64,000 nt of DNA from Polytrichum commune. Its lineage: Eukaryota; Streptophyta; Polytrichopsida; Polytrichales; Polytrichaceae. The DNA lies in NCBI GenBank assembly GCA_950295325.1, contig OX485804.1:24428001-24492000 (forward strand), written 5' to 3'. The position numbers and the translations under genes are program-made. Shown piece after piece: positions 16,434 through 48,257 of this stretch. A model generated the notes under the pieces. It was not told the DNA's origin, ran no database searches, and saw only the letters and a program-made list of their open reading frames with translations. Position 1 is the first letter of the stretch. Every line of letters begins with the position of its first letter.

Positions 16434-16684
16434 TATGGATTTGGCCGGACGCTAAAGAAGCCCTATCGAGCTCTGTGCGCCTAAGAATCTGCGTCTCATG
16501 GTCCACGTGTCAGTGCCCAAACCATAACTTTATGGACCTGCCCACGCTGTTGCCCCCACCTTGCCAGACCGGATGGAACCTTGGACGGAGTTAGCTCCAA
16601 CGACGTTAGTCATCCTTCGAGCCATGGATCCTCTTCCGAGCATTGGGAACGTTCCCTATCTCCTTCCCATCGGTTTTCAACCAC

Positions 16685-17170: not shown

Positions 17171-17597
17171 CCAGGTGGAGGACGTTAAGTCCCACGAACT
17201 TTTCGGGGGGGGGGGGGGGGATATTTTGTTTGGGGCAGCTGCCCGTCAGTTTTTCTGCACCCCACCGAAAATTGTTGCCCGCCTGCCCGACTTCAAAAAA
17301 ACTATTGTACTTGCATTTTTGAAGGCTACTTGTCCACAAATCCCATATTGAGTGCACTTCATTTTCAAGGTCTCAAATCCAATATATATGTTCACTTTCA
17401 TTGAGTAAATAAGCAATTGACTGGATTTCATTTTCAAAGTGAAACCGCCAATAAAGCACGTAATAAACTTGGAAGTCAAAAATATTACAAAATCCTCATT
17501 AGCATTGAGGTTATAATTTTTGTCACTTACAATTGAAAGGGACTTTGTCATTCTAAAGTGAAACTCAAATTGATGATTTTTTCAAAATTTCAATTGT

Positions 17598-17628
<31 letters not shown>

Positions 17629-18189
17629 ATATAATATAGTTAATACCGACTACTATCACAAATTTTTCATACACATTCAAACTAGTTAAGTAAGATTGAA
17701 TGCAACTAAGTCTAGTAATTTCTGATTTATCCTAAATAATCCCAATTAAATCAGAATATATGATTACCAAATTAATTAAGCCTAATTGATCATAAATTGA
17801 AAAAATCATCAATTTGAGTTTCACTTTAGAATGACAAAGTCCCTTTCAATTGTAAGTGACAAAAATTATAACCTCAATGCTAATGAGGATTTTGTAATAT
17901 TTTTGACTTCCAAGTTTATTACGTGCTTTATTGGCGGTTTCACTTTGAAAATGAAATCCAGTTAATTGCTTATTTACTCAATGAAAGTGAACATATATAT
18001 TGGATTTGAGACCTTGAAAATGAAGTGCACTCAATATGGGATTTGTGGACAAGTAGCCTTCAAAAATGCAAGTACAATAGTTTTTTTGAAGTCGGGCAGG
18101 CGGGCAACAATTTTCGGTGGGGTGCAGAAAAACTGACGGGCAGCTGCCCCTAACAGAATATCCCCCCCCCCCCCTGAAAAGTTCGTGGG

Positions 18190-18560
18190 ACTTAACGTCC
18201 TCCACCTGGATGTAGTGCATAACACATTTGTAAATTTGAATATGATGTATGACACATTCACAAATTTGGATCAAGTGCATGACACATTTGAATATGATGC
18301 ATGACATATTTGTAAATCTGGATGTTGTGCATGACACATTTGTAAATATGAATATGACGCATGACATATTTATAAATATGGATATGGTGCATGACACGTT
18401 TGTAAATTTGGATCTAGTGCATGACACATTCGTAAACATAAAATATGACGGATGACACATTTGTAAATTTGGATTTAGTGCATAACACATTTTTGGATTT
18501 GGGACCGGCGTATAACGCATTCCAGATATTTTGATGCATAACACATCCGCACATATCGTT
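18190..18560. repeat. Tandem repeat of about 30-bp units, right arm (inverted)
   Basis: Reverse-complement counterpart of the left-arm array (GTGCATGACACATTTGTAAA units) with about three fewer units. The corresponding C run is at 18163-18174. Confidence 0.83.
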
Positions 18561-18831
18561 TGCATGACACATTAGCAAATGTGGTTGAAAACCGATGGGA
18601 AGGAGATAGGGAACGTTCCCAATGCTCGGAAGAGGATCCATGGCTCGAAGGATGACTAACGTCGTTGGAGCTAACTCCGTCCAAGGTTCCATCCGGTCTG
18701 GCAAGGTGGGGGCAACAGCGTGGTCAGGTCTAGAAAGTTATGGTTTGGGCACTGACACGTGGGCCAGGGGACGCGGATTCTTAGGTGCACAGAGCTCGAT
18801 AGGGCTTCTTTAGCGTCCGGCATGGATTTGG

Positions 18832-26232: not shown

Positions 26233-28794
26233 GTGGACAGAAGAGTCCGCAAATTCCACCTGGCATTTATGTCAGTAACATTGACATGTAATTCACCACA
26301 CTTTCCATCCTTATCTATTTTTGCAATTTGAATTTGAGATTGAGTTTGTTACTCCATATTGATTCAGGTGGAACTTGCTTTCTGGAAGTTTATGATTGAA
26401 CTCACCTTGTGGATCAATCCAGCTGCTGTGGGGAAACTACGACTAAATTATCTGGGAGCATTTGACATCCCACCAAGTATATCACTGAGCTCTATGATGA
26501 CATTATTGTGATCTCCAACTACAACAGCTGGTCCTTAAGAATTTTCTCCACAATACCAACTTCTTAGATGAATTGGGTTGGAGATTATTAAGGAACCTTT
26601 ACACTGAAACACTCTAATGGGGTGACACCCTAATATTATTTCTATTGGTGTTGCTAGGCTGAATGTTCAGGTCCATTGGCCTCAATTTAGGCCCAAAACG
26701 TTCTTAGGAGTTTCATGCAAATTTTGTATACTCTCTTTATGTTGGATGACATGAAATCGTCATCAAACTCTTAAGAAGTGCATAGCAATTTCATTATTAA
26801 AGTGTACATTGGAGGTGAATTATTTCATGTTTTTCATCCTAATACCTTGGTGTAAGTGTCATGTGTCCATAAATGTGTTTCATTATGTCCAATTTTATTT
26901 TTAAACGTTCATTTTTCATGTAGCCATGTTATTGTGTAATGTGGCCCATGTTTGGTTTCATACGTAAAGTCATACAATTGATATGCAATACATCTTTAGT
27001 TCTATTGGTACACAATTGAATGATAAGTGTGAAGAAGAAAATTGGGATCATTTCAGTTAATTTTTGTTGTCCTTTTCATTCCTTAATCCTAAGGTCAACA
27101 ACTCTGACATCAACCATAGATAACAGTTAAGAAATCAACATGATATCATTAGTAACCCTAATCCTTGTTAATTAACTTTGTCATTGTATTGATTATGGAG
27201 TATTAAATGTAGGTATGATCCAAAATATGCTCCACAATACAAATCTAAGCACACCAACTATGTAAAGTTATTTGCTTTAGTCCGTGTTTGTTAGACACTC
27301 ATTCTTGCACCCCAATTGTGAATGACCCCTACATCTAACATTATCTAGTTGAACAAGCATGTTGGGTGGGTCCAAGAATATGTCAAAGATTGATTTTGGT
27401 GAATGCCATGTGATCCTTCACTATGCATATTCAACCTAAATAACAATTACGTTGCTTCCGTAAATATACCGGCATCTAACTTTTCATTTGTGTCAGTCCC
27501 ACCGGCCGCCCTCAACGACCGATTAACATCATGTTCTTTAATTAGCGTGTCTTCTCGTCATCTTGGCTTATTTAACGAAGACCCTTTGTAAGCTCTAGGG
27601 GAGAAAGTTAGCAACTTCTTTGCTAATGCATATTATTCTTTGTTGAAGTAGGGTTCTTGGCTACATACGGAAGGCTTATGCTGAAGATCATAGAATACAT
27701 GATAATTTTAGCACCGAGACAACCGCCTTCCTACTACAGGGTTGACAACTTACTAACTTACTAACTTAGTAACGACGGTCTAGGAGGCCAATTGTCCAAT
27801 AGGTTAGGTCCATTGATTTTGAAATCAACTCTCCCCTTTGTTGGTTTTACTGCATAACTTTCTTATATGTGGAATGGAATAGGCTGATTGTGCTTAATAA
27901 GTGTTATAAGTTTCTGTTATTTCAACAAAGGTGTAGAAATTGATAAAGATAAAGGGTCATATAGTAGGTAAAGTGGTAGGATATTGTAAGTTGTTCCAAC
28001 CAAAGAGTACTCGAGAGTAAATTTTTTATATATCCTAGTGTTTGAAGTGTCTTCTTTAGCTTGACAACTTCAGTAAATGCAAGGTTAGCACCACACGATT
28101 TTTTACAACTAGGTTTTTCATAGTTTTTTTTAAATAACCCAATCATCTAAGGTTCAACAAAATCCAGTTTTATTCGGTTTTATTACAAATAAGTTGAGAT
28201 TATAGGGCACAAGACCCAATGTCCGCCAATGATGGTGTCGATTGCCAAGTGTTGGAATAAAACCATGATTTTATAAGAAAAAATCGGGTTTTTTTGCATT
28301 AAAACCAAAAACCCAATGCATCGGCTCAAAAAGGTTAGGTTTTTCCCACCCTTGGGTATATGTAGATGGAAATATTCTAGCTGATGTTGTATGTTAGGTC
28401 ACAGTAGGACAGGGTTAGCTATAGAATTGCTCAAACTTTTCTTTTAGTCCTCTGTGTCTTTCTTTAGTGTTCACTTCACAGTAGTTAAACTTTGCGCCCA
28501 AAACTTTAACGTAAGAAGTTGATGATATCGTTTTTTACCTTCGTTCATGTGCACTATGTGTAGCGGTACTCTAGTAACATTAAGTTGAAAGTAATTGTAG
28601 TTGGCATCTAGCAATGTTACACTTGTCATAATTAAACTATGGGTGAAGAGATACATGTTACTTGTAAGTGAATTTAATACTCCACATGGAGTATTGTTAC
28701 TTGATTTTCCTTATGTCCTTATGGCTGGTAAGATGGTACAAAGATGGCATAGTTTTCCAAGCCCTACTCTTAAGCCATTGGTATGAGGTGATCT
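26233..28794. other. Intergenic DNA, no gene recognised
   Basis: AT-rich and free of long ORFs. The longest frames (62-75 codons) have no recognisable content. This is the left flank of element E1. Confidence 0.6.
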
Positions 28795-28798
28795 ATGG

Positions 28799-28828
28799 AA
28801 CACTATATTCGTTAATTGGAAACTTTTG
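28799..28828 (+). repeat. E1 left terminal inverted repeat
   Basis: AACACTATATTCGTTAATTG followed by GAAACTTTT. Compared with the E2 right terminus it matches at 27 of the first 29 positions. Confidence 0.82.
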
Positions 28829-29201
28829 AAAGTCTCAAAATAAAATATGCCCATAGTTTGGGATGCCAATATTGTGGGCATACGGAATATTGGAAACATC
28901 AAGAACATGACGATTTAAAAATTTGTACGTAAAGGATATTCTTATTACTAAAAATAGATAATTTCAATTAAAATGGAAAGTGAGCTCCATGTGGAAAATA
29001 ACAATCCACTCCAAAAAAAACAAATGGTTTATGTCATTATAGAGTTTGGGGTGCGCATCCCATAAGTAAGGCTCTTATGAATTTGGATGGCACATCCTAA
29101 ACGTATACCACAATGGAGTGTGACAAGTCCACTAAGTCTATTAAAAACCAAATCTACTAATCGCCCATGTTTTTCGCCATTAACTCCCACCTATGTTATG
29201 T
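28829..29201. other. E1 left subterminal non-coding DNA
   Basis: Nothing coding lies between the left terminus and the stop of the DUF7869-type gene. No palindromic sites of the E1 type are seen here. Confidence 0.6.
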
Positions 29202-32200
29202 TTACACATCTCCATCTTCCGCTTCATATCCATTCTCGGCGTCATTTTTTGCCGCTGCAATACGTGCCAAGTTGTCTTTGGCAAAATCTATATGTTTTTG
29301 GGGGATGGTCATTGTTTCTGTTTTGGACCCTTTGCGCGGCTTCCAAGCACAAAGTATAGTATCCGTATTTATCCAAACCGGTGTGTACGCTGAGTCCACA
29401 GTCCACTTAAAATTCTTTTTGGTGTCCCAACCTAAATAAGTGCGTAGCACATTATGGTCTTTAGTGCTTGGACGACAATATTCCACCTCAATTTGACGAA
29501 AATTGGGGCTAGTTCGAACAAAATTGGGTGAAGACAATGCTTTCACCAACCAAATTGGCTTGGGATGCTCCTCATCCCCTGCTCGTACAAGGACCAAATA
29601 ACCTTCATGGCAATCAACACCTACACGAAACGACGGTGCCGGTCGATTGCGGGCAGGGCCAACGTAATGCTCGTCCATTGCGAACTCTTCACGAACGTCT
29701 CCATTGCTAAAAAACATGGTGTCGGACTCGACAACCGTTAAACGGCTTTGTGGTCAAAATCCTTGTGTTAAAGTTGTACGGGTGTCGCCACCAAGTGTCA
29801 TTAGGGCCGAGCGAATGCAATCCCAATACGCAATTAAAGGCTCATGAGTATCTTTAACACGTCTAGTGATGTCTTCCTCACACAACTCTTTCCAATATTC
29901 AATGAATCCGGATATGCCTTTGATGATTTCCGGCCCATTCCTCATGAGATCAGGTTTGCAAGGCTTTGGATCCCCATCCGGAAGCAAACATTTGTCATCA
30001 TTGTCTTGATGCCATACGAATATACCATCATCCGGGCCCCAATTAGGAGATGTGCACAAAAGCTTGAATTGCATGGCTGGGAGACCATCATCCCTTATAT
30101 AGAATCGGAATTGTTGTGCTTTGGTATGCCCCACCAAACGGTCCCCTCCCTTCAACATGTATGACTTGATGAAGGCCTTGAAATTTGGTACTTCCTCAAT
30201 CATGTGCGGAATTACTGGCATATGGTCCAAATCCATATACGATTTCATAAGAAGAGGTATGGTTGGAAAATCTTCTTCATGCAACTTCATGCTCCACCGT
30301 CCGAATGATGCATCAATGTCGTCGTGTGTACGTCCCACCATAAAAAACGACACAAACACCTCCTTGAAGATTCCTTTCGCCACGAGCAATGACCAAAAAC
30401 AAAATACATATCGACATTTGTTGTCTTTCGCGCAATTATCAAGTTGAACGTGAAGAGTTGGAGGCAATGGTTTTGCACAAATAGGTTCTCCCGGTGGTTC
30501 TGGCAATGACGACATACAAACCTCCTTCCCCGCAAGCACTGCTTCGTAAAGGGGTGTCGTTCCACAACCATCAAAAAATGCACGTGATTGTTGCGCACCT
30601 CTCCATGAGGAGTGCCCGAAACACCATGGGCACAAGGGGGACCCCGGAGTGACACCCGGGACTTGTGGCGCCGTTGGTGAGAGGGCCCAAGTGATCCTAG
30701 TGTGGGTGAGGGCCCCGGGCGTTGGGAACGCCTCCCACCCACGGAGACTAGGAGGCATGAGGGTAAGGCCATGAGCTATGCGTAGCTCATGGCGTGGTGA
30801 TTCTAGAATGCTCAAGAACACCTCAATCGGAGGTGTGAGCTAGGAGTTATGGCCATTTGAGTGGCGCGCTGTCCCGGGACAGCGCCCTGCTACAGCAGTG
30901 CCTGGGAGTGATTCCCGGGACTGCCAAGGTTCAAACAGGCATAACTTCCTGACCACTTGCCCGAATGGGGCAAGTGAGGAGTCCATCGGCATGTACGTGA
31001 AGCGTAGATGAAGATGGAGTGGTTGGTTGCTGGAATCAGACATCATACAAGGAAGTTATGATGGTCTGAAGCTGCTGGGGGCTTCTAGGCCCAGCGGCTA
31101 AGGGAAAATGTCCACTTGGCCCCAACTCTTGGTAGAGAGACAAGAGGTTGGTTGACGGTGGGGTAGGGGCCCCGCGTAGAGTCCTAGAGGCTTATATGGG
31201 TGAGGTGGTGTGGCCTCACCCACCCGAGGCCGAACGGCACGGCCTCCATTGGCATTGGCCTAATGTGAGGCCATAGTTGCCTAGTATGGTTCGGGTTGTT
31301 GTAGTGTTGCTTCGGCAACGCGATGATCAACATAAGATTGGACTTCCATGGATGGAAGTCCACATCTAAGGATTGGTTACCAATTAAAGGGGTTGGTTAC
31401 CGATTAAAGGGGTGAGTCCCGAAGTAAAGCAAAGTAGGAGGGTTGGTTCCCCTCCTATGAACTATAAGGTCCGGGGTGAGAGGAGCTAACCATTAGCATG
31501 GCGGTATGCGAAGGGTTAGCGACTCGTAACCTTTGCTAGAATTGCAAATTGGCAAGGTTGTTAAGGGGGCTAGCAAGGGTTGCGACAGTGATGAATGTAA
31601 CGGCGGCTTCTCCAGATCGCGCAAGAGTTTTGCAAATGAACCCACTGTGTGGTTAGCATCGCCAGGGTAAAAATCCAACCCATAATGGGCATACTTTACG
31701 TCTCCATGGCCGTGGGCAATCATCCCTGCGAAAAAAAACAAACGATGCTTGAACAACAACAATAACAACGACAACTCCAAACGGAGGTATGAAATTGGAT
31801 ATTTGGCAAACACACCCAATAAAATTTGAGAGAATTTGAATACATATTTGTGATTCAATACAAACCTGTGATAGATACGGGTAACTTGAAAAGACCATCC
31901 GTGGCCTTTATTTTGCGTGCATAACAAGGGCATGCGGTCTTGGCGTGGTCCATTTTATCATGGATGATTGTTAGAACTTCTGTAGGCCTCATTATGGATA
32001 GAGCACGGTTCTTGTAGTAATCTTGACGGTGAGCCTCTTGGTTGTTGACATGTTCAATATATTTTGCTTGGTGTCTAGTGTGGGATTCGGTACCTATGGG
32101 GTGGGCGTCTCGAAGACCTTTGTATTTTTCACACGTCGTACACCTAGCGAATTTGTCCCCTGGTCTCTTCAAAATGTATTCGGCAAACTGTTGGTTTTTA

Positions 32201-33342
32201 ATCACACTCAACTTGGACAAAGAAATGGGCCCACATCCCGCTATGCGATCCACTTCATTGATGTCCGTTAATATGTTCTTCCATTTTGTACCCGTGGGCA
32301 ACACCATTTGTACAACTTTCTCCCCTGACGACAATGTCCTCGTCTTGTGGGGCATTGCATCGGCCAATGGGACTATGATGGTGGAGAGTGTCGCGGAGGT
32401 TTAGAGTGTAGCCTCCCTAGGTTTCTTTGTACCCGAATTGCCATGAAAACGAGAGCGGCGACCCAACAATGAATATTTTTGAAACCTATAAAAGTCAGAC
32501 TTTGACACGGCGTAGATGGTATACCACGCAGTACAACACACTTCCACATTATCAAGTGTGACCACCTTATGCCCATGGATGTCAATGTGGACATTTCTGT
32601 GGACCTCGAGTTTCTTTGCCGATCTCATACGGAAATCCGCAAGCCACATCTCTTGACGTAGGGACTTAATTTTCTCCCGCGGGAAAAATTGGCAACATTT
32701 CCTCTCGCAACAGTCCTTGGCGGACACAAAACGGATAGATTCGTCTCCCAATATGCGATCCCGTCGACGTTCCTTATCTCCACGAGGCACACGGTTAGAA
32801 TCATATCTGCGTAGGCCTTTGCGAGGACGTATTTTGGCCAACAAAGCTAATTGCGTTTGCTTATGGCGGCGGTCATGATCCAACAAGCTTACTCCGTCAT
32901 GGAGAACCCGACAAAGAGGCCATCGACGCAAGGAAAATCTCCATGTCACCGGGACGTCAAACGGAAGCAAAGAATTCAAGATGCACACACCCACATCATT
33001 GGGACCAAGGGGGTTGGCATCCATACAATCACAGGGATCGGAATTTCTACATATGCCATCTGCCACCGGGACACCAACATCGTTGAAAAGAACAACATCA
33101 AGGCCCACCCATTGCTCCCTACCGAAACCGGCACATAACGGAATGTCATCATTGTCATCCCCGAAACGTATAGATTGTTCGTGCGTTTCAAATGATTCGT
33201 GGGAGGATGAATCCACAAACCCACCCATGGCATTTGCCATGCCATGACTACCCGCCGATGGCGAAGATAGTTCACAGTCACCATCGGAAGAGGAAGCTTT
33301 TGTGGACAACTCCAATGAACTATATCCAATGTGCATCGCCAT
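29202..33342 (-). pseudogene. DUF7869-type transposase-like gene, interrupted by a solo LTR and two stops
   Basis: The minus-strand frame is open from ATG at 33342 (after a TTTAG acceptor; an upstream exon is possible) with SRRRDR-like basic and Cys-rich segments (SAKDCCERKCCQFFP, ARCTTCEKYKGL). An intron (31865-31726) rejoins SITG to MIAHGHGDVKYAHYGLDFYP. The DUF7869-type core is LHVQLDNCAKDNKCRYVFCF, VGRTHDDIDASFGRW and IPLLMKSYMDLDHMP; these Asp-rich motifs suggest an RNase-H-like nuclease but that is inference. Breaks are TAA at 32403-32401, a solo LTR 30589-31587 whose removal restores the frame, and TGA at 29756-29754 followed by in-frame homologous sequence to 29202. I infer it is the transposase of E1 because it sits between the termini and is the only transposase-like gene there. 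Confidence 0.75.
30589..31587. mobile_element. Solo LTR, 999 bp, TSD GTGAT
   Basis: Starts TGTTGCGCAC, ends GGTTGCGACA, with flanking GTGAT on both sides (30584-30588, 31588-31592). Excision leaves an uninterrupted DUF7869-type frame (EKPPLHSS joined to RAFFDGCGTTPL). No internal retroelement sequence remains. Confidence 0.88.
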
Positions 33343-33486
33343 CCAACCTAAACAAACCACCAATAAATGACCAACACAACAACAACCGCAATACATACAA
33401 AAGCGGATACGAGATATGCCTACATATATGGCTGAAAAATCACAACCAACACTCGCCACACCGTTGCGGGACCTCACATATGAAGA

Positions 33487-34790
33487 CGAACGTGCGTTCG
33501 ACAACAGCCCCATGACATGCAAATCCTACACGGGACTCAGACGTCCCTGCACAACGGAACCCCATTCCAATATATATTACCCGTGAAGGGCTTTGGGTGG
33601 AGTCGCCAATAAAACATTGGAAGGATTGTCCACCACCAAGGGACAACACAAACACATATATTCACGAACGCGAGGACGAAAACATCAACCCAATATACAA
33701 TAAAATCTAAATGGGACATATTATAAGAGCACCTAAAATATACTTGCCACTTTATTCACATGCAGTAAGCATCATATTTGAGGGGCGTATATTTGATGGG
33801 CGAGTGTTTACGAACGATCGTTCGTTAGCTACAGCTGAAATGGAGGGCTTATGTACACGAACGATCGTTCGTAAGTTCCAGCCGAAACATAGGGGCGGAT
33901 GCATACGACCGATCATATGTATGTTACAGCCGCGACAGTGTTAGGCAAAAATGATTGGACACGTCCAAATAGAGATATCTATAGCCACGTTACAGGGATA
34001 CATGAAATCCAATATCCAGTGGAAAATGACAATCGACATCTATCACTAAAATCATGATTGAACAGATACGAACGAGCGTTCGTATCTAACATTAACACGG
34101 TGTAGTCCTCTACACATGCTTGTGTCAACAAGTCTGTTGGTGGATGCGTGGACGGTGGATAGGTGGTATTTACGAACGCGCGTTCGTAAAATTGGAAAAC
34201 ATCATTATCCGTGGACATAAATGGTAGTGCGAAATACGAACGAGCGTTCGTATCTATTCTAAACATGGTGTAGTCCTCCACACACGCTTACGTTAACAGG
34301 TCTGTTGGTGGATGTGTGGACGGTGGACAGGTGGTATTTACGAACGTGCGTTCGTAAAATTGGAAAACATAATTCTCCGTGGACATAAATGGTAGTGCGA
34401 AATACAAACGAGCGTTCGTATTTAACTTCCATATTGTGAACGTGGCCAATGCACGGAAGTGTATAAATTAAGGAATATTTATGGATTCTTGAAAAATAAT
34501 CCCAGGTGATATTTACGAACGCACATTCGTAAATATCCCATCATCAGATGTTCCGTTGGAGAAAACGGTTACACGGGAACTCCTGCGCGTCTGGGTCTTG
34601 AAGGTAGATATACGAACGTACGTTCGTATATAATCGACACAATTTTCGTGCCTAGTTCTGTCTATAAGTAACTCAATGTCGAGTACGGTTGTAAACAACT
34701 TACGAACGCACGTTCGTAAACAACTCACATCATATTTATGTACCTCTTGTACATGTGCTACCAACTCACGTTTACGAACGTGCGTTTGTA
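33487..34790. promoter_or_regulatory. Palindrome cluster 1 (about 13 copies of TTACGAACGNNCGTTCGTAA)
   Basis: Perfect or near-perfect dyads are at about 33487, 33811, 33858, 34068, 34169, 34235, 34338, 34401, 34511, 34610, 34700 and 34770, with a decayed copy near 33905. The arms are conserved while the central two bases vary (AT, AG, CG, TG, TA, CA). Two copies of a larger 165-bp block (34,100-34,240 and 34,270-34,410) carry two dyads each, so some copies spread by local duplication. The cluster lies upstream of both divergent genes, the position expected for regulatory or transposase-binding sites. Confidence 0.88.
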
Positions 34791-34799
34791 AACGTCCGG

Positions 34800-37139
34800 T
34801 ATTTGCGGCGGTATATAAGGGTATGTGCAGTCTGTAGTGGACCTGGGGGGTGTAGGGTTGGCGCACAAGAAAATGGTTTGAGCGCGTTCCAGTCAGGTCT
34901 GTGGAGCGCACACTTGGATGTGCCGCAGAAAAGAGCTCTTCTGTGGGGGGAAGAGCTTTAAGTACCTTCCCCCCAATGGTTCAAAATCCCTTGGATGCTA
35001 TTTAAAAAGTGGATTCCCGCCGCCTACTTTGACCTAACAATATGCCATTCCATTCATGCGCAATATATAAATAGCATTATGTATGGAACATGTCTTGCGT
35101 GCACGCAACATATTGTAAATGTATAAATCCGTCGCACACCTTAGTTGTTACCAAGGTCGCACGAAAATATGTCTATATATCTATATGTCTATATTTATAA
35201 GTCTATATATATGTATAATTTATATTTTACTATTTTATATATGGGTTATTATAATATATATATATAGGTTGATGGGTTAACATTGAGTATTAAATTATTT
35301 GCGACTAAGGTGTGAAGTCCAAGTGAATTGATGAAGGTTTAAGTGATATATATATTCACACACACAATGAGGTAAGAGTGGCTAAGAACATATTGTGGAA
35401 TCCCCTAAAATTGTAGATATCATATGATTCACATAAAAAAAAATGCTTGTAATATGGTCACCAAGTGCATAAATACCAATAAAAAATCGCTTAATCCATA
35501 GTGGCTTGTGCTAGGTAGATTGAGGACATTTGGAAGTGGAGGCTCACCAAACATCGGCCCATATTAATATGACTCATTGTTGCAATTCATCATTGGTGAA
35601 AATTAAAGTTTAATGCACTAGTATTCGATCGTTAGTTCAAGTTGACACCTAATTAAATGACTTGACGTCCTATTGGAAATTCACTTTAGGTCCACCATGG
35701 TGTGGAAATGGATAACTAATTTGGAATGGTGCATACAATAGTATGCACTTACAATTATATATTTGTATTATTTGCAACAAGAAGTATGTGCATGACCATA
35801 GCTTAAACTATTGATTTAAGTTGAAGTCTTAAACCATTCATGTTATAATAAGACTAAGTGTGTATTTTGTGATCAAATTGCACTCAAAACTATTAAGGTG
35901 AAAGGGCTAGCATTTCAAAATTCATTCTTCACCCCCTAAACCAATGTTTTATATCAAAATGACAATTACTGGCATGAGTCTAGATTATTATAGTTGCTAT
36001 GACCCAAATAAGGCAAGTTCCAATCGAACCAACATTCGTAGACCATTTTGACATGATGCGCATAGACCACAACATGGCCATATATAAGAAAGGTTGGTAA
36101 GGTAAAAAAATGTAGGGTTTAGGGTTTGGGGTTAGGGTATAGAGTTTGTGAAAGTTGTCTATGTGGTTTGCGGGCTTAGGGTTTAGATCGTTACTTCAAT
36201 GCATTATATACACAAACAATATCGACTCCTAAATAATCCATATCGCACTAACTTAATTTATGGGAAGCTCATACTATCAATTATTGATACTACTAGCAAA
36301 ACATGCGACCACATGGCTAAAATACACTACACTAAATATCATATTTAGTGTTTGATTGTATAATATAGTGTTGTTACATTATCATGGTCAACACTAAATT
36401 TCAATTCTTTGATACTACTAGCAAAACATGCGACCACATGGCTAAAATACACTACACTAAATATGATATTTAGTGTTTGATTGTATAATATAGTCACTGT
36501 GTTGTTACACTATCATGGTCAACACTAAATTTCAATTCTTTGATAATTAGTGTTGGACATATTAAATGGGCCACCACATTTCCTACTACCATGTCCTTTA
36601 TGCTTTTATCATTGTTAATTTTTTTTTCATATTAATTTCCTTACACAAAATTTGTGCATGCGACATCCACATATTACCATTATAGTTGAAATTAAGTGTT
36701 TGAGTTCACAATGAATAGTAGTTACTTTCATAGGGTTACTGATATTTAGTGTACTATGCGTTTGTATTTAGAGTATCTAACACTAAATATCATATTAAGG
36801 GTGGTTCAAGCTAACACCTCATTAAATTAATGACATCGTATTGAAAATTGAATTTTCATCCACCTCTTGTGGAGAATCAGATAGCCCCTCTCCACAATTC
36901 AAATTGAGTCATTTATATATGTAATATTTATTTGAGGAACCATTGAAGAACTTTAAAGATGTCTCGTTCATGAAAACGACATTTGCATCTTGGGGGTGGA
37001 TTCTTCATCGAAAACCTACTAAATGACATGAATTGTTAAATACAAATTATCTGAACATACTTTTCTAAAATATGTTTACAAGGAATCCATATGTCGAGGT
37101 ACTAAGGGGATACGGAAAGTTAAATTTATGTCCCTAAAC
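34800..37139. other. E1 central non-coding DNA free of palindromes
   Basis: No ORF of note. It includes an AT-rich 35,160-35,280 segment, a 125-bp tandem duplication (36,286-36,541) and a short telomere-like run of TTTAGGG variants at 36,113-36,145. A TATATAAGG word is at 34,813. The abrupt lack of palindromes suggests an inserted block, but I found no defined ends. Confidence 0.5.
36286..36541. repeat. Tandem duplication (125 and 131 bp) containing CACTAAATAT dyads
   Basis: Both units begin GATACTACTAGCAAAACATG. Each contains CACTAAATATNATATTTAGTG, nearly a perfect dyad. The second unit has a 6-bp insertion (CACTGT-like). Confidence 0.87.
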
Positions 37140-37859
37140 TAAGCTCCTCCCATCTCCTATTTCATTTTTCCTGAACCCTCATCCCTCCATGTCCCCATGG
37201 TATCCCCTCATCCCCATCCCCATTCCCTCCATCCCCTCCATCCCCATCCCCATCCCCATCCCCCTCCCCCATCCCAGCCCTAGCCAGTGGCCACTAGCCA
37301 CGTGGCTGCCGCTTGGAAACCCTAGCGGCGCCGGCTACCTCCCCGCGCCCCTCTCTCTCCTCCTCATTTGTCATTTGGAGCAGAGGAGGAGAGGAGCTCT
37401 TAGGTGCGGCGAAGCCCTTGCCAATTTTAGAGCCTCATTGTGAATGTTGTTTTGTTGTGTTGTCAGAACCTTGAGAATAGGAAAGCTTGAGAGTAGGAAA
37501 GGTTGAGAGGTTGAGAGTTATAGAAAGGTTGAGAGGTTTAGAGTTTTAGAAAGCTTGAGAGCTTGAGTTTTAGAAAGATTGAGAGGTGGAGAGTTTTAGA
37601 AAGGTTGAGAGCTTGAGAGTTTTGGAAAGCTTGAGAGCTTGAGAGTTTCAGAAAGCTTGAGTTTTCTGAAGCTTGTGAGTTGTGTACATCAGGGTTTGTG
37701 TAGGATTTGCATATAAGTTGTGAAGGCTTGAGAGTGTGACAAAGTGAAATTGCAATTGAAAGCGAATTCAACGCTTTTGAAAGACAATTTGGTGTGCATT
37801 TGTGAGGGTTTCTGGATTTCTCAGTAGGAGGCAGCAGGTTTTCTGTGCAACAATTCAAT
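37140..37859 (+). promoter_or_regulatory. Putative promoter and 5-prime UTR exon of the E1 chimeric gene
   Basis: A CT/CCCCATCC-rich tract (37,140-37,275) is followed by about 200 bp of purine-rich TTGAGAG/GAAAG repeats and then a good splice donor, AAT|gtgagtac at about 37,858. The chimera's ATG at 38800 directly follows a CTCTGCAG acceptor, so at least one untranslated exon must lie upstream. This is the best candidate. No TATA box is evident. Confidence 0.45.
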
Positions 37860-38194
37860 GTGAGTACAGGTTTCCTTTACAAATCACTCCTTCACAATCT
37901 GAAATTGTTGTTTGATGAATTCCTTGTGATTTGTTTTCTGCATTATGAGGTATGGCATGTTTTGTATGAAATAACACTTTCCTCTTCATTCTGAATTATC
38001 AATCACTGACTCGCAATTTTGTTCTGATTCCATTTTTCACTTGTGTTTCATCAATCTGATCACGAGTTGCAGGTTCATGAACAATGCACGATCGCAACAT
38101 TCATACCAACATATATACGCATATATACATATACGTATCCGTATATGTACGGATATATGTATATAAATAAATATACCATTTCCTAATCCCAGAT

Positions 38195-38770
38195 GACCAC
38201 ATTTACGAACGTTCGTTCGTAAATGTGGCGTGAATATATGCCTTACCCCACAAACATATACGAACGTGCGTTCGTAAATACGCACCTCACCCTCCATTTT
38301 TACGAACGCACGTTCGTATATTCGTCTATACCCTGTACATCAGACAAATCCTCAAATCAAATTACACATACAAAAATACGAATGAACGTTCGTAATCACA
38401 AACTATAACAATATACCAAACCCTTCATGGTAATTGTTTGCTTTCCCTAGTAGCATAATTTACGAACGCACGTTCGTGAATAAGAACTAAAGTATTAATT
38501 CACCTATTTAGAAGATGCTCATGGAAATTAGAACAATCCTCGTGGAATTTAGATAACCCTGGACAACGCGTAGACTTGTTTAGAAACAATACGAACGCAC
38601 GTTCGTAAACTTGAGCCAAATACACCTTAGCAACCACATTCTTTACAAACGATCGTTCGTAAATGAAATCAGCGAAGACATAATTAAAATTCCTCACGGG
38701 TACCCATAGCCAGCGTTCATTGATTAGTATATATGATTTGCTTGTCAATTACGAACGCTCGTTCGTAAAC
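38195..38770. promoter_or_regulatory. Palindrome cluster 2 (eight copies) in the 5-prime intron of the chimera
   Basis: Dyads occur at about 38203, 38259, 38301, 38374, 38460, 38589, 38645 and 38750, all before the acceptor at 38792-38799. Centres vary (TT, TG, CA, AA, CA, CA, AT, CT). They sit in the sequence likely to be spliced from the 5-prime UTR. Confidence 0.87.
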
Positions 38771-40095
38771 ACAATACTAAATGTTTATGTGCTCTGCAGA
38801 TGGCTAGACCGAGCAGGAGCGCCATTGAGATGTTCGCAGTGCAGATAGATCAGCTACCAGAGTCAGTGTCCGACCCCAACGGAAACGATAATTATGTCCC
38901 CAAGGAGGACTTCATTGGGGAATGGACGGCACTGCCAGAGAAGACATCAGACGGTCTTTTCTGTCTTCGCTTCACCTACGAGCTGGAAACGACGCCGGAC
39001 CAGCCAGAGCAATGGGTGCAGATGAAGACTTGGGAAGTAGAATCGATTGAGGCACAAGGAGATTATGTGATTTTAGACATGAAAAATAAGAAGGATCACA
39101 TTAACCTCCTGTTAGAGTACAGGAGACATAGTTTCTCCTACACATACGCAGAAAATAACGTAGTGGTTGATGCCAAACACTTCCTCAAGGACCTCTTCAC
39201 GAAGTACGCCCTGAGCTCGTACTGGACAGCAAGGAAGTTGGCCGCGCTTTCCTTGAATATCTCCAAGTACAATAGCGCGGTCGCCGAAGCCAACAAGAAA
39301 AAGAAGAGCCCACGAAAACCATCCGCATCCGGGGCAGGAGGATCGAGAAGTGCACCCAGGCCGGTGCCTTCCGCGAGCAGGGTGACGGAGGGTCCCAGCC
39401 GACATTCCACACCATCGAAGAGGTCCCGGGACGAAATGGAGAGGTCTGGGGTAACAGAGGGCGCTGAGGTGAGCTCTCCTCCCCTGATGCCAACCCCTTT
39501 AAAGAAGGGTGAGAATCCAGATGCAGTAAAGGCAACAAAGATCCTACGAGACTTCAATAATTACTCGAAGGATTGCTGGCCCATGGGGCGCCACTTCACG
39601 TTCAACGTGGACTGCTTCAAGTGCGAAAAGTCCCCCAACAAGTGGGTGGTAAGACCTCGCGAGAGCGGTGGGGTGAAGTGGCAGATCAACAACCTCATGA
39701 ACAACGTCAAGTGGGATAGGCAGACCGTCTGCGTCATGCCCAAGGGGCTGACATCCCGACCGACAGAGATGGATTGGCCGCGAATCCAGAATGGAGAATT
39801 CTGGATTATAGATGGTCAGCATAGCTTGGAGGCGTCGCAACAAATCCTCAAGGACGACAACTTCCAGCACGAGCTGAAGGCTGACCTGCGGTACTGGAAG
39901 GCGTTCTTGGTCTGGTCGGACGATTGGGACAAGCTGCGCAAGATTTCAACCTTCCTGAACTCGGGGAACAAAATCAAGGCGTTCGAGGCTTTGTGGGCGG
40001 CTAACATAGTGGCTGCGAGAGACGTCTGGGTGGCACACGGATGCCCACCAAAGGAGAGGGAGAACGCCAAGAACCAGTCTCTTCAATGGAAGGTG

Positions 40096-40177
40096 AGTTT
40101 ACGAACGTTCGTTCGTAAAGTGTTGGATTCACGAAAACATCAATTACTGTCTCAATTTACGAACGTGCGTTCGTATT
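40096..40177. promoter_or_regulatory. Two E1 palindromes inside a 116-bp intron
   Basis: Intron 40093-40208 has one dyad starting four bases inside the donor (gtgagtTTACGAACG) and another about 30 bp before the acceptor. Together they fill over a third of the intron and could pair with each other in the transcript. Confidence 0.88.
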
Positions 40178-41549
40178 ATGTGCAACACTGACATCTTGTT
40201 TTGTGCAGGCATTTTGCGACGCGATGGTAGACAAGTTCTCTTCCATCGATATGAAGTCCACCACCACCAAGCCTGTGCTCGAGCTGAAGGGTGAGCTCAG
40301 ACTGATCTGCTGCAACAGGGACACATGGGACTTGTGGACGCAGTTTTTTGATGCACACAGCTCGGGCGATTTGGTCAATCCCGACACGGAGGAGAAGTAC
40401 AGCACGGAAAAAACCGGTGAAGCGCCCCCACTACTGAGGGAGTTCTTTAGACACCTCCAGGGATTGACGGAGTCAGAGCTGAAGAGGTGTGCGATTCATG
40501 TTCTTGGGAACACCGTGGGAAGAAACCTTCCCTATCCCAAGATCTTTTCGAAGAGGCCAAAGCACAAGCCCGGGACGTACTCTATCAAGGAGTGGTGTGA
40601 CCACCGAAAGCTGAAGACTGCTGCCATGAGAGAGTTGAGCATACTCGTACCAGAGTACAAAATCTTTGAAGTCGACGGCGACATCAACTGGCCGTAATGG
40701 CAATTGTTAAAGGTCGACTACAACATCAACGGAGCCTCCATGCGCAGTCTGGTCAAGGAGCACGCCTCGATTTTGAAGTTGAAGGGGAACAAAAGGACTA
40801 AGAAAACCGACACGGATCCCCATGAGGTAATGCTATACATAAAATTTTTGGAGAGGAAGAGGAACGCCACATTCGAAGGAGTGGCAAGGTTTTGCGTGAT
40901 GACCTCCGGCATGGAGAGGGTCACATTTTCCAAGTGGGACGGCACCATCAGCAGGGCCGAGGTGAGGGAGGATCGACGGGGTTGCCCATTTGCCCTGATC
41001 GATTTCAGGTGGATCCCGGGTGTGTCAAGGCTGGGGGGGAAGGACATTCCCTTCTACAACCCCTTCATGGCCAAGTTCATGGAGTTCAAATCGCCGGCCA
41101 TGAGGGAGCCACACGTTTGGCTGTGGAAGTCGAACAAGAGAAGCTGTCGGTCGTCACAGAGCTGTACGAGCAGAAGATCAAATTCGAGTACAACATCTTC
41201 CACAGCACGTACGTGCCAGCGAAGACGGAGGGGATCGTGGCCATCAACGAGGCCAGGGGCAACAAGCAGGTGGGAGCGGTCAGCTTGATTTTCTTGACGT
41301 ACAATGAGCTTAAGGATGGGCGACCGCCTATCAAGGCAAACAACACGTTCAAGAAAAATCTACAGCATCCCGCATCCCCCTCCCAAGGATCTGCTGCAAG
41401 AGACCCTCTACACCGTCTTCCCCGCCATGGAACTCAGGATGGAGTTCTACGTCTCTGTATTGCAGAATCTGGTTATAAGTGGAGAGACGGTATACAACGT
41501 ATGTGGAGGCTCCAAATTCATGTATGCAGCCATGGTAAGTTGTCCAGAC

Positions 41550-41732
41550 TCCATTTACGAACGCTCGTTTGTAAAGTTAACCAACTTCTCAATGTATTGT
41601 TTCACAGTCGCTGCACGTGACGCATTCATGTTTACGAACGCTCGTTTGTAAACATAACCCCCTTCGTAATGTAATGCTTGAACATCGTTGCTCGCTACGC
41701 TTTGATGTTTACGAACGTGCGTTCGTATTTTC
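41550..41732. promoter_or_regulatory. Three E1 palindromes inside a 223-bp intron
   Basis: Intron 41535-41757 has dyads at about 41554, 41631 and 41707. Two of them have CGTTTG in place of CGTTCG in the right arm. Confidence 0.87.
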
Positions 41733-42742
41733 TGACCTTATTGCTCTCTTCTCACAGATGATGGGTCTCGTAGTCAACACATTCGTTGACGCTATCGGCG
41801 AAGAAGACTTCAAGATCCACCGTGCGAAGGCGTCGACGATGGACCTCAAGGACATCTTTGTCCCCAGGATGGACTTCAGTATGCCCGCCGACGAGGGCAT
41901 ACCATTCCACGATTCAGAGGACGACGAGCCCGCCCCCTCCGCCAACGTGGACGCCATTCTGCAGTCCTTCGACGTACCCCCACTTCGGATCTTGCCGCCA
42001 ACGACGGATCTTCCCGACCCTCAAGGGACGCCGGGTGGTTATACCGGGTCGTCCGCGGGGACAACCCTGGACGTCCTCCCCGCGAGAACATCTCTTGCGG
42101 AGCCTTTCGGAACGCCAGGCGGATGCTCGACGTCACAGTCTCCAAGGCCCGCCGTGGTTCCGAAGATGGAAACCCTGGACATCCTCGACCAACGCTCGTG
42201 GCCATCTTTGGACCTCTTCCGCAACACGAGGAGGAGGATGAAGAAGACTCCCTATGTGGAGTTGCCGCTGGGAGCAATTATCGAGGTCTCGGACGAGGAC
42301 GAGGGGGACATGGACATCATGGCCGAGCTTGGCGTGGACTACGACAAGAACAAGCGGGTGAAGGAGGAGGCACTCACCGTCGCTGAGCTCAACGCCAAGC
42401 TAGAGGTGAAGATGAAGGAGGAGATGGCTGCAGCATAGGAGGAGAGCGCCAAGCATCTGGCCAGGCTGCAAGAGCAGCTGAGGGATTCAGCGGCCAAAAC
42501 CGACGCCATCTTCGAGATGCTCAGAAACATGCAGAGCTTCTCTGCGCCGGTCCAGCAACCTTACCCCTTCCCCCCTGGAGGATACCCCTCACAGCCCCCA
42601 CCTCCAGTCATGTACCAAGGAGGGCGTTCCCACCAAACAGCGCCACACCCAACGCCGGTGGGAAGTCCATTGCCCCCGGAAGTGACGGCGGCCGCCTCAA
42701 CCTCCCACGATGCAATCACGGCGGCGCTAAGGGAGGACGAAG

Positions 42743-43216
42743 ATTTACGAACGCGCGTTCGTGAATCTTCAGGTCCGGCAGTCCTCACCCCTCCCCCTTC
42801 AAGGGTAGGACTGCGCACAGACACCGACACGGCCTCTTTCACCGTCGTCCCAAGGGTTCTAGATAGGCGGGGCGATGACACTGCGCAACACACTGACATG
42901 GTCATTGTGGAGGAAACGCAGGGGAGCCCCAATGACTCGGCAGGTCCGCATGGGATGGTCGTGGAGAGCCCTGACCAGGAACGACATCCATCTGCGCACA
43001 TGGAGGATGTCCGCATGGAGAGACTTGACCTGAGCGGGGACGACGACGACGACGTGGAGCTCATCCAACAAACCCAGTTGTCTCAGGAGGAGCGTCCAGC
43101 GGAGGTCATGGAAGCAGAGGTTGCTGCCCCAATGGATATTACGAACGCGCGTTCGTTAATCAAAGAGGTAACTCATCTCTGAGAATGCCAAATGTTTTAC
43201 GAACGCGCGTTCGTAA
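42743..43216. promoter_or_regulatory. E1 palindromes within coding sequence and at an exon end
   Basis: The dyad at about 42743 is translated as LRTRVRES. The dyad at about 43138 is translated in a different frame as ITNARSLI, just before the donor at 43168. A third copy is at about 43195 inside the intron. Confidence 0.85.
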
Positions 43217-43504
43217 CATCACTAACCCCCGCGTTGTGTTCTTGGCGCTTCAACTCCATCGACATCACGTTGCCCACGCGAGCATTTTTCTACATGATCG
43301 CTTGGGCCGACCAATTTTGTAGGACACTGCATTTTTTCCTTAGGAAATTGTGATAGATTATCACGCGAGACAAATGTACATATTCACCGAATTAATATAT
43401 GAGCAGACGATCTCTGCTCGCATCCCCTCAACTTATTGCATATTATTCTCGCGTCTTGTGTTGTCTGTGTTGTTGCGCGTCCTTGCATTCTTTGCATACA
43501 CACC

Positions 43505-43660
43505 TCACTCACGAACGCTTGTTCGTAAAACTGTGCGACCCCGTCTCGACCTCCTTCGCGAACGAGCGTTCGTATATGTACGCATCCGCGCTCACGAACG
43601 AGCGTTCGTAAATGATGCGCACCGCCCCGCAGCCTTCATTGATGAACGGTCGTTCGCAAT
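43505..43660. promoter_or_regulatory. Four E1 palindromes in the 626-bp intron before the FCP1-like exon
   Basis: Dyads at about 43510, 43557, 43592 and a decayed one near 43642, within intron 43168-43793. No further good copies occur downstream. A weak relic, ACGGACGCTCGTTCGT, lies in the tail exon at about 44926 and in its E2 counterpart at about 12450. Confidence 0.82.
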
Positions 43661-45207
43661 TGTGCCCTTGTGAACATTTTCCTTGCACCCTCCTCACTTC
43701 CTCCTCTTTTCCCATAATGCATCGTCTTTATTTTCAACGCAACAATTTCTTTATTGGATCATAGAATTAAACTAGTCGCGTTGTTCATCACAGGACCCCC
43801 CAGAGATAGGTCGCAACCCCTCCACCAGTGGACCTCGAACCCGGAACAAACCGTTCCTCGTTTTTGACCTCAACGGGGTGTTGTGTCACACCCAACACAT
43901 CCCAAGGGTCCCCACGCGTCCCTTCCGTCACCCCGACGAAAGGGACTACGACGGCGAGCTCGACACCCTCATTAACCGCAAGGCTGTCCGCGCCCGTCCC
44001 GGCCTGCGGGACTTCCTTCGCAAGGTGGTCGAGTTCGCCCACGTCGTTGTGTGGAGCTCCATGGTCATGGAGAACACGGAGCCCATCGTCCACTTCTTGT
44101 TCCGTGATCTCCCGAGCCCTTGCCTCGTCCTCGGCCAAGAGGACTGCGACGAGCTGCTCGACGAGAAAGGCCGACCGGTGCCCAAGTTTGGCGGTCGAGG
44201 TGGAGGACAACAGTTCCTCAAGGTCCTCCGTTCAAGACTCTGGCAAGGCGTCCCCCGTCTGCAGGGGACGCCCCATGGGTGGTGGCCGACTCCTGAGAAC
44301 ACCCTCCTCATCGACGACAACCCCACCAAGAGCGTCTTGAACCCCCCGGGCAACGCCATCTTCCCGGACACTTGGACCGGCGATAGGCAAGACACATTTT
44401 TGGTCGATAGGCTAGCCCCCTACCTTAGAAGGCTCGTGCTCCACGCCGGTAGCATCCCATTTTTTGTTAGGTCCAACCCCTTCGGCAATGCGGCGCTAAG
44501 TCCCCGCGATAATGTATATAAGAGCATCATGAGGCTCGCCAAACTCAATAAATTGATTTGAAATTCCTCCATGTCTTTGCTTGTTATCATGTGGTTCACA
44601 TATCTAATGCTTGCTCTGTTTTTGGATGTCTGTTTTTGTTTTTTGTTGTTATTGTTGTTGTTCTTGCCCATAGTCTGCCCCCATATGCGATGCCCCTGTA
44701 GTCGATGGCCCTTCCCGTCCCCTCTCGCCCCCGGCATCCCCTTCCCGCGACGTCACGGACTTCCAAATGCCATCCCTCTACCACTTCTCGGCGGTCGACG
44801 CGGCATCGGCCGTGGATTACTCCCGCGACGTGGGCATCGACGACGGCGTCGTCAACAGCCCGCCCCCAGCACTTGTCACCCGCGCGTACGCCCCGTCGCC
44901 CTCCCCCCTCTCCAAGGAGAAACGGACGCTCGTTCGTTTGGGGCACCTCTCGCCCTCTAAGGACGACGCCGTCGCTCGTCGCGGGCCGAGCCGGCGTCTC
45001 CGCATGGAAGGCCCCCGTTGCCACACCTCCCCCGCCGACTCCGTTCCTCCCCCCGCAACGTCCTCCGCTATCGTGGGCCCTCCACGCCTCGACTCCCCCC
45101 CGCCATCCAACAGTGCAATATTTCCATCGGCTCCGGATGCTCCCGTCGACACCCCCCTTGTTCCCACCGTTCCCCGCATGGACGTCCCCAAAGCCAAGGT
45201 GCCCTCC

Positions 45208-47396
45208 TGTAATGACAATTTCTGAATTTTTTTTGAGCAAAACAATGTGTAAGTGAGAAACATGTTGTTTTAAGGCTTCAAAAGTAGAGAGAAGTATGTG
45301 TGAACAGGGCTATGGTCTGGCAGTTTAGAAAAGTAACCGCCAGCAGCTCCTGACCTGCTTCGAAGAAGCTTCAGAAGGATACACAGTCTATTGTCTGGTA
45401 GAAGAAGGCAAGTTTTTTTTGGGTGAATATAGACTTTGATAGTAGTGCAGTGAGATTCAGGCTGGGAGAGCCGACAGGATGATAGAGAATTCTCTGTGCT
45501 AGGTTGATTTGTAGTGATACAGATTAATTCCCTACCAGAAATTGTTTTGATTATACTGTGAGGTGAATTTATCCTATTCCAGGGGGCTTGTACTGGAGCA
45601 GGCTTGGAACTTTTGAGAAACTGTGTTTATTTCTGGATTACCAATGTTATGTGGGGCAATCATAAATATAGTTTACTGTTATGTGTAATTGCAATTCTGT
45701 TTCCAAATTATTGTATTGTGACTATGAGTGTTTATATGTATATGTTTTAGATCATAAGCGTTGCATGAGGCAGAGTCCTTGGTAGGGAGAGTTGAAGTAA
45801 TCCAGCCCGGGTGAAATGCATATATTTGAACTTGATCGTAATATCTCTAATGAAGTTGAACTGGTGATAATTGTTGTGTGATTGGATTGGCTGGTTACTA
45901 CATAACTTGATATTTTCCAGTGAGTGGTTTATATAGATTAAAGGCTATGGACTCAACTGGATTTGTTTCATACTTATCAGATATATGCTGAGGTGGGCTG
46001 AAATATCGAGCAATTATGGTCTGAGTCTATGCATGAAGTCTGTGAGGATTTTACCATAGGTTATTTTCTAATTCTATTATGAAGAGCAATCGTTAATCGG
46101 GTGAAGGTTTTTATTGGCAATTGTCTGGGTGTATCAAGGAGGAAAGAAACTGCTCGGATTTACATCATAGCTAGATGGCTTCATTCTTGGGAGTCCATAG
46201 ACTGGAAATATTGAGGGGTGAATTACCTACTTGGTTGACCTACTCGAGAACCTAGAGGTATCGGAAAGTAGAAATTTGGAGTTACTTTGGTGTGTTGTAG
46301 GTAATCACAGACAATTGACTGCCCTGATACAGTAAATTCTTGTACTGGGGGAATGTTTTCGGATGAGTCATTCTCTCAACCCATTAAGCCTCAGTGAGTA
46401 ATGTGCTAATTTTATATTAATCTAATACGATGCCAATAAAAGGAATGCGCCTCGTATTATTTAGTTCAATCTTTTGAGAGTACAGTTAGGGGACAAAATA
46501 GTGAAATATGTAGTTGCAGATAGTTATAGGATTGAACCAATGACAAAGGCTATTGTCCTTGCTCTGTAAATGGAGAAACTGTTCTCTACTAGCCTTTCAG
46601 AAAGGATGGAACGTGAAAGAAAAGAGGCTATGGTCTGTGGATGATTACATAATCGGACGTAGGAGATTCCTAATCATGATTCGTACGACACAGGTATGTT
46701 TTGATGGCTAATTGTGTCATTAATTGAATTCAGAGATCTTCGTGAAATCATTACTTTATTAATTGAATGTTTTAACTTCATTTTGGGGAAGATAATATAA
46801 TAATGAATTGATTACCTTAACGAGCATGTGGTCTTGGTCTATTGTTTCGAGGAAATACGCTATGGTTATGTTGGCCAAGACCCGGTAAAGCCTATGGTCG
46901 GACAGTATAACCTAAAATGAAATGATTAATTAAGGAGTTTCGACAATCCCGCAGGGATGACTGCACCGCCCATTTCAAGTTCAATTAAAAGGGATTAATT
47001 AAATGCCAGCTTATGGACAATATCAAAGTGCCCTTGACTTTGATAAGCCAAACTAAATGGGTTACCTTTTGCAAATGACTATAGTCGATGGCGAGCCCTA
47101 TGTTTTTGCACCGCACTTGGTCCAATTAAAATGAACTCACTGCCAGACAATTGCCTGGGAAATTAGAGTGAGAAGAGAGACTGTCACTTTTGCATGCACT
47201 GTGATGGAGTGATCTTTTAGATGTTTTTATCCCCTGCCCGTAAACTAATTGACACACCTAAATGGAAATGAAGTGTTATAGCCTTGTGTTTTACCTAACA
47301 AACCTTGTCTAAGACACCTAGATGATATAAGAATCACCTTTTAAGTCTTCCCTGATTGTTTCCCTGGTTTTGTTTGTAACCAAAAAGCTAACTACA
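45208..47396. mobile_element. Solo LTR, 2189 bp, TSD CCTCC
   Basis: Comparison with the uninterrupted E2 copy (12,728-12,745) shows the exact insertion. The element starts TGTAATGACA, ends GCTAACTACA, and CCTCC flanks both sides (45203-45207, 47397-47401). It lies in the intron between the last two exons of the chimera and carries no retrotransposon coding sequence. Confidence 0.92.
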
Positions 47397-47868
47397 CCTC
47401 CTCAACCCTAAACCCCTTTCGCGCTTTTGCTTCCCTTGTCTTTCGTTTGCGTGCCGTTCTCTTTACGAGCGCCCATCCCAAACCGCCCTCATTATTTTCC
47501 CCACTCCATTCCTATTCTTATCTTCCTATGACGTTGTTTCGCAGGTGGCTACCCGCTCGCTTGGTGCCCGGCCCTCCTCCACGTCCTCCTTGGATAGGCA
47601 CGCCCTCAAGGCCGCATCTTCCGAGTCTGATCGTTGTCTGGCCCTCCGGAGAAGCGCAAGACGTTCCCTTTCGCAAACGCCCTCGTATTCTACTTATAAT
47701 ACCACCTCGTACAATTCGGGAGCGCGTCCTGAAACATGCAAGAACAACACATATTCCTGTCCAGGCAACACACAAGGATACAGTCGTGGGCCTGAGATTT
47801 TTAGAGCCATGAAGGCCGCCAAAAACAAGGACTTAGCCGCAAAAAAAAATAGTGGATCGGACTAGTGT

Positions 47869-48253
47869 GACTAGAAGCGTACTAGTGGGACGGACTCCCT
47901 AAATGGGCTTAGGTGTAGAACATATTTAAGTGCTTACTTTCTATGCTATTCCAAGTTACTCAAGACATTGATGGTATTTCCATTATAATTGTATTTCAAT
48001 CCCAATTAATTCATTCAACTTCCATTCATTCTTCGCATCTTCCCTTCCATTCATAACGAGTTGTCATTTCATACGCAACTATTTTCATGTATGCCTCACA
48101 TTTTGTTCACTTCCATGCCTTTATGTATAATAATAGTAGCATACCATTATACATATGGGATTTTTAGTCCTCATTACTGGTCCAATTTTGAAATGTGCAT
48201 CCTTATATAGTCTCATAATCAACAAAAAGTCTCCAAATACCGAATATAGTGTT
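47869..48253 (+). other. E1 right subterminal DNA and terminal repeat
   Basis: Non-coding and closely similar to 13,189-13,587. It ends CCGAATATAGTGTT at 48253, where similarity to E2 stops. The last 30 bp are the right terminal inverted repeat. Confidence 0.82.
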
Positions 48254-48257
48254 ATGG

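Follow-up and report, generated by a model that had tools for sequence, protein, structure and literature searches.

A decayed copy of an abundant moss DNA transposon with two divergent genes and lineage-specific palindrome arrays

Bacterial parS sites are palindromic sequences of about 16 bp that occur in clusters, and En/Spm transposons combine two genes with a site-rich layout. In Sola1-1_Ec32 of Ectocarpus, a ParB-methyltransferase gene lies opposite the transposase gene, and it has been proposed that proteins of this type bind and modify their own transposons, with no sites named in the portion of the source consulted (PMC12477816); Sola1 is also listed for Physcomitrella in the relevant part of another survey (PMC9033089). 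VANDAL elements, as far as the sections consulted describe them, carry arrays of short, often tandem motifs in non-coding regions and introns, which differ between related elements (PMC5735166), and VANC21 binds a 9-bp non-palindromic motif, the VANC proteins carrying DUF1985/DUF287 (PMC5735166; PMC10398659). Here we analyse a 64,000-nt window of contig OX485804.1 of Polytrichum commune, to which all coordinates refer. Positions 28799-48253 (hereafter the window copy) are a decayed copy of an abundant DNA transposon of about 16 kb in this moss, which carries a DUF7869 gene, a divergently transcribed partner gene and, between them, a dense field of palindromes.

A bounded transposon with two divergent genes

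Inverted termini of 13 bp and a duplicated ATGG target mark the window copy as a DNA transposon. The terminal repeat AACACTATATTCG occurs without mismatch at 28799-28811 (forward strand) and 48241-48253 (reverse strand), the two copies of ATGG flank it directly (28795-28798 and 48254-48257), and the only other perfect match in the window lies at 13575-13587 (reverse strand). An earlier, sequence-only reading had proposed both the termini and the duplication and had suggested a genome search, which bore them out: across 408 Mb in 64 contigs, exact matches numbered 776 forward and 807 reverse (1,583 in all), against 3 and 10 (13 in all) for the same pattern read backwards. Among the 100 matches listed, all on contig C1, termini less than 25 kb apart formed 25 inward-facing pairs, compared with 4, 3 and 4 pairs in the other orientations. 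The copies read comprise 24 of these 25 pairs, the 22.75-kb pair being left out, together with the window copy: ten were read whole at 16-18 kb, two short ones were also read whole, and twelve were read at their ends only. A 4-bp target duplication, its letters differing among copies, was found in 23 of the 25 copies, i.e., in 10 of the 11 full-length ones, where the flanks were compared by eye and E17 was the exception, and in all of the 14 others but the pair L049/L050 (13 of 14). Inverted termini common to many copies and target duplications of fixed length thus place the element in the terminal inverted repeat order. Left and right ends are distinguishable, because only the left ones have an additional short inverted repeat (E25, AGACTTTtgAAAGTCT; E13, GAGACTttctctAGTCTC; window copy, 28820-28838 with one mismatch).

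Whether other copies of the terminus bound the same two genes was a point on which the sequence-only reading could have been refuted. All 11 terminus-bounded copies of 16-19.5 kb, a set chosen by size, contain both, and, of the 150 partner matches listed, at least 95 stand divergently to one of the listed DUF7869 matches. The identities proposed for the two genes also held, with domain scores of 117.6 bits for DUF7869 (cut-off 26) and 60.6 bits for the NIF/FCP1-like domain (cut-off 21.8), and a ParB-like assignment from fold comparison.

The DUF7869 gene (29202-33342, reverse strand) has two exons separated by an intron at about 31726-31860, in a model drawn by comparison with E25. Its predicted structure resembles the RNase H-like fold of DDE/D transposases, and from this fold and the conserved residues we infer a DDD transposase acting on the invariant termini. 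The protein also has a large N-terminal part. Its relatives point to a moss as host: those of the mosses Ceratodon purpureus and Physcomitrium patens are 52% and 51% identical, those of the liverwort Riccia more distant (32-33%).

The partner gene, on the forward strand, is a chimera in which a ParB-N-like region is joined to a methyltransferase fold that lacks the catalytic DPPY; in the gene model, an FCP1-like domain is fused to both. Exon 1 (38800-40092) encodes the ParB-N-like region with its DGQHS motif, exon 2 (40209-41534) the β-class methyltransferase-like region, exon 3 (41758-43167) a low-complexity charged linker with palindromes inside the exon, and exon 4 (43794-44561) the FCP1/SCP-like (NIF) domain. 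The ParB-N fold is supported by fold comparison of a model with predicted local distance difference test values of 54-87 (blocks of ten, residues 251-380), and this region passes no Pfam cut-off. DGQHS is present in 36 of 59 partner relatives. GERRxRA is the cytidine triphosphate (CTP)-binding motif of ParB, and GE[RH]R occurs in none of the 36 relatives bearing DGQHS. The model also resembles β-class DNA methyltransferases. DFRxxP occurs in 20 of the 21 relatives with this region, and in these 20 no DPPY-like motif IV ([DNS]PP[YFWH]) lies within 40 residues of it. FCP1/SCP phosphatases have the catalytic motif DxDx(T/V); in the window copy, E25 and E13 the DxDxT is replaced by DLNGVL, with Asn for the second Asp. 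Residues 380-640, where a helix-turn-helix was sought, are modelled partly at low confidence and are scarcely covered by the fold comparison. Profile searches of PDB sequences returned no match for the proteins, and Pfam and NCBIfam searches with 26 partner relatives gave weak matches alone (best DUF6551, E 0.024), the VANC domains DUF1985 and DUF287 not being among the families matched at E ≤5. Downstream of the FCP1-like exon, a third, Ser-Pro-rich reading frame (44674-45207, forward strand; DAAS..DYS..GVV.SPPP..PSPL) is conserved in 11 of 11 full-length copies; it may form a gene of its own or serve as an alternative exon.

Palindromes and their candidate reader

The gap between the two gene starts holds the main palindrome field of the window copy (33486-38766; consensus ATTTACGAACGnnCGTTCGTAAAT), with 20 of its 32 sites at up to one mismatch, 21 sites being exact. 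The dense field noted from the sequence is therefore genuine: in 20 first-order resamples per copy, every arm occurred at most once. Each of the 11 full-length copies has a single dominant palindrome of 16-24 bp with 13-38 exact occurrences. Its arm is ACGAACG in the window copy (21), E17 (21) and E25 (23), ACGGACG in E29 (13), and TGGGTCG in E13 (38), E15 (25), E19 (31), E21 (30), E23 (22), E27 (27) and E31 (25). The only other recurring arms, the TA runs of E17 and E25, were set aside as simple repeats. Genome-wide, ACGAACGnnCGTTCGT has 5,602 matches versus 4 for its control, TGGGTCGnnCGACCCA 10,055 versus 1, and ACGGACGnnCGTCCGT 1,394 versus 1. Thus, three lineage-specific palindrome forms coexist in the host genome. 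Among sister forms deduced from database relatives, ACGGCCG has 27 matches here versus 2 for the control, and TCGGTCG and TGGGCCG have none in this genome. For ACGGACG, to which the following count applies, 46 of the 50 places listed lie in the C1 stretch with listed termini, and inward-facing pairs enclose 36 of the 46; some first-listed places of the other two motifs lie outside exact pairs. Over all forms seen or inferred, the half-site reads TT[A/T][C/G]G[A/G][A/T/C]CG. The sequence-only reading had recognised a bounded two-gene transposon with a palindrome-rich gap, which stands; it had missed the lineage specificity of the palindromes and the degenerate methyltransferase fold.

Of the 30 sites of E25, 19 occupy the gap between the gene starts, 8 are intronic, 2 belong to exon 3 and 1 is downstream; the DUF7869 gene contains none. 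Of the 40 sites of E13, the gap holds 30, the introns 8 and exon 3 the other 2. We give very little credence to the idea that a host factor targets the palindromes, or that they are a side effect of tandem duplication, the partner being uninvolved in either case. Many sites do sit in tandem and duplicated units, some of those in the window copy and E25 within units of about 168-179 bp, and tandem repeats contribute more of the sites in E13, E15, E29 and L053. However, when all sites of the window copy and E25 are compared, about 22-24 bp alone are conserved and the flanks differ, and within a copy the same motif recurs in introns, in exon 3 and in the gap between the genes. Neither would a single host factor be expected to go with three coexisting motifs and the absence of two others of the same design.

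The type of motif goes with the clade of the partner. Between E25 and the seven TGGGTCG copies, identity is 58-66% for DUF7869, 43-44% for the NIF domain and 33-38% for the ParB/methyltransferase part, the partner thus diverging faster than the transposase. This bears directly on whether the DUF7869 transposase itself binds the palindromes. Such binding could be accommodated by its large N-terminal part, and the protein is encoded beside the field; yet the motif differs among lineages whose 13-bp termini are identical and whose DUF7869 proteins are as similar as those just compared, and we regard this explanation as highly improbable. Since the termini are invariant, they fit the transposase, whereas the varying palindromes need another reader, for which the fast-changing partner is the best candidate.

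Database relatives widen the comparison. The motifs of other lineages were deduced from in-frame read-through intron peptides, and the resulting patterns matched 41 of 59 partner relatives (64 matches) and none of 113 DUF7869 relatives, the former count not being independent, as the patterns were built from the same sequences. LRTxVRK was counted as ACGAACG and also fits ACGGACG; P0155 was assigned to ACGGACG, P0158 was omitted, and P0167, which matches no pattern, received the label TCGGTCG by visual inspection. A tree was built from partner exon-1 proteins of 27 of the 36 relatives bearing DGQHS; on it the six motif labels need 5 changes, the fewest possible, versus 15.8 when shuffled. Proteins with different labels can be as much as 82% identical, or 85% if the visually labelled P0167 is counted, and one relative, P0129, has two motif forms together. 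Ratios of nonsynonymous to synonymous substitution were saturated for many pairs, with two comparisons missing, and were not used. Agreement between labels and tree would arise from linkage alone. The stronger argument is that, in a single copy, about 30 sites all have one motif although they are scattered through introns, an exon and the space between the genes.

On balance, and with moderate confidence, we favour a reading in which the partner is a dimeric, sequence-specific palindrome binder that acts as a self-specific chromatin or anti-silencing factor beside a DDD transposase working on the termini. The DUF7869 transposase would work on the invariant 13-bp ends, while the partner would bind the palindromes of its own lineage as a dimer, occupying the promoter gap and introns of that lineage's copies; once bound, it would, by analogy with VANC in VANDAL elements, sustain expression of the element or protect it from silencing. 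CTP or S-adenosylmethionine may have a part in the action of the partner. A parS-like, CTP-driven clamp is possible, though the motifs offer it no support. Bolder and rather doubtful is an address code in which each ParB/dead-methylase/FCP1 protein would read its own palindrome alone, load at the promoter gap and introns, and spread so as to keep the copies of its own lineage open; code and reader would switch together. If this were true, one host genome would harbour several mutually blind transposon lineages with common transposase ends.

Alternatively, the partner and its palindromes could serve transposition rather than the control of silencing, e.g., by pairing the ends, choosing excisions or controlling copy number, in the way that TnpA binds in En/Spm. 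The two-gene, site-rich layout is in keeping with this, as is the outermost right site of E25, about 1.1 kb from the end. So is the short derivative L053 (9.5 kb), which retains good termini, a target duplication and 33 exact palindromes alongside mere fragments of DUF7869 (46 residues) and NIF (81), as expected of a non-autonomous copy that has been mobilised. On the left, however, 3.9-4.7 kb separate the end from the outermost site in the window copy, E17 and E25, the bulk of the sites falls between the gene starts and in introns, and L058, of only 3.6 kb, has good termini and a duplication together with a DUF7869 remnant and zero palindromes. We therefore consider a role in transposition unlikely. 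The ParB/methyltransferase part is absent from both short derivatives read whole, so that short terminus-bounded derivatives need not contain the genes.

History of the window copy and its surroundings

The window copy had been described as complete, which it is not. Two nested solo long terminal repeats (LTRs), each bounded by TG..CA and by a 5-bp target-site duplication, account for its length of 19.45 kb: one lies inside the second DUF7869 exon (30589-31587, GTGAT), the other at 45208-47396 (CCTCC). Without them it measures about 16.26 kb, near E25 (16.11 kb) and E17 (16.07 kb), which are 99.4% identical to each other. Both genes are broken, DUF7869 by an in-frame stop near 32400 as well as by the solo LTR, and the partner by three stops in exon 2, in the frame continuing exon 1, and one near 42438 in exon 3. 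Elsewhere the family may have spread recently: in a search with a piece of partner exon 1, 23 matches among the best 150 of 951 candidates share one score (431.6 bits, E 9.5e-128), which we take as a sign of such spread.

The right end of the window copy (47397-48253) is 97% identical to E25 and the rest 65-94%; the window copy is therefore also a mosaic, formed by recombination between subfamilies. It also has a close neighbour. At the left end of an upstream copy (L063; G000:C2:24411769-24411969), 201 of 201 bp are the same as in 28699-28899, a stretch running across the left end and including 100 of 100 bp of flank, and both genes of the two copies are offset by the same 44,930 bp. The shared flank and equal spacing mark the two as related, at least in part, by segmental duplication.

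The second copy that had been reported to end at base 13587 is present as a right-end remnant (11764-13587, forward strand), which has the same terminal base as the window copy and is 88-93% identical to its right end. Its right flank is CTAGGC where the window copy has ATGGTC, so it is another insertion or a recombinant; the differing flank makes it unlikely to be the right end of the duplicated upstream copy. Pieces of a plant-type CACTA element occupy 4730-9778, with Transposase_21 and DUF4218 above cut-off, DUF4216 just under it and Transpos_assoc far under it. The stretch directly before 11764 ends in TAGTG, and the CACTA element may thus have inserted into the copy that left the remnant at 11764-13587. 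At 16444-18821 lies an inverted repeat of very large size, with arms of up to 380 nt that are 96-99% complementary and with 30-bp tandem repeats.

Relation to known systems

Sola elements generate target duplications of 4 bp, the length seen in 23 of the 25 copies here. Together with the DDD fold, the listing of Sola1 for Physcomitrella and the gene layout described for Sola1-1_Ec32, this points to Sola1 or a near relative, by features and by the parts of those descriptions consulted rather than by transposase sequence. The view that the element matches no superfamily was accordingly too strong. Like Sola1-1_Ec32, as portrayed there, it is a giant DNA transposon with an accessory gene on the opposite strand that combines ParB-like and N4/N6 methyltransferase folds; unlike it, the element has lost DPPY and has an FCP1-like fusion and lineage-specific palindrome arrays. 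A ParB-methyltransferase gene opposite a transposase is thus already known in algae, and the moss element would be a variant with a dead motif, an FCP1 fusion and arrays.

The parallel with En/Spm drawn from the sequence extends to the two-gene, site-rich layout, with differing proteins and termini, and stops short of membership. The letters CACTA are included in AACACTA, but the duplication is 4 bp instead of 3 bp and the termini begin with AA rather than CAC. The CMCT group, including Lanisha, a superfamily proposed by authors known for work on moss genomes, is characterised in the available description by C(2)C and H(3-4)H between the second and last catalytic residues (PMC12730594). This signature, sought up to 250 residues after the second Asp, was found in 1 of 37 sequences, which sets the element apart from Lanisha and CMCT as so described and likewise from CACTA/EnSpm. 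The literature searched held no description of this element and no use of the word DUF7869, the search not being exhaustive for that word.

With bacterial ParB/Noc and parS, the element has in common a ParB-N-like fold and clustered palindromic sites of about 16 bp, but DGQHS stands in place of GERR and the sites are dispersed in a eukaryotic transposon. Because the element shows obvious candidate sites in large numbers, which vary along with the protein, the idea that ParB-methyltransferase proteins bind their own transposons becomes directly testable and, if our reading is true, the element offers a case for the joint change of a DNA reader and about 30 dispersed sites. With VANDAL and VANC, as far as those sources were consulted, it shares a fast-diverging, element-encoded protein beside a more conserved transposase, and variable motif arrays. 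It differs in its palindrome of 16-24 bp and in its ParB, methyltransferase and FCP1 folds, and the action of VANC has been demonstrated by experiment, whereas that of the partner is a proposal. Should the reading hold, this moss transposon would have achieved self-specific control from bacterial-type folds, unlike VANC.
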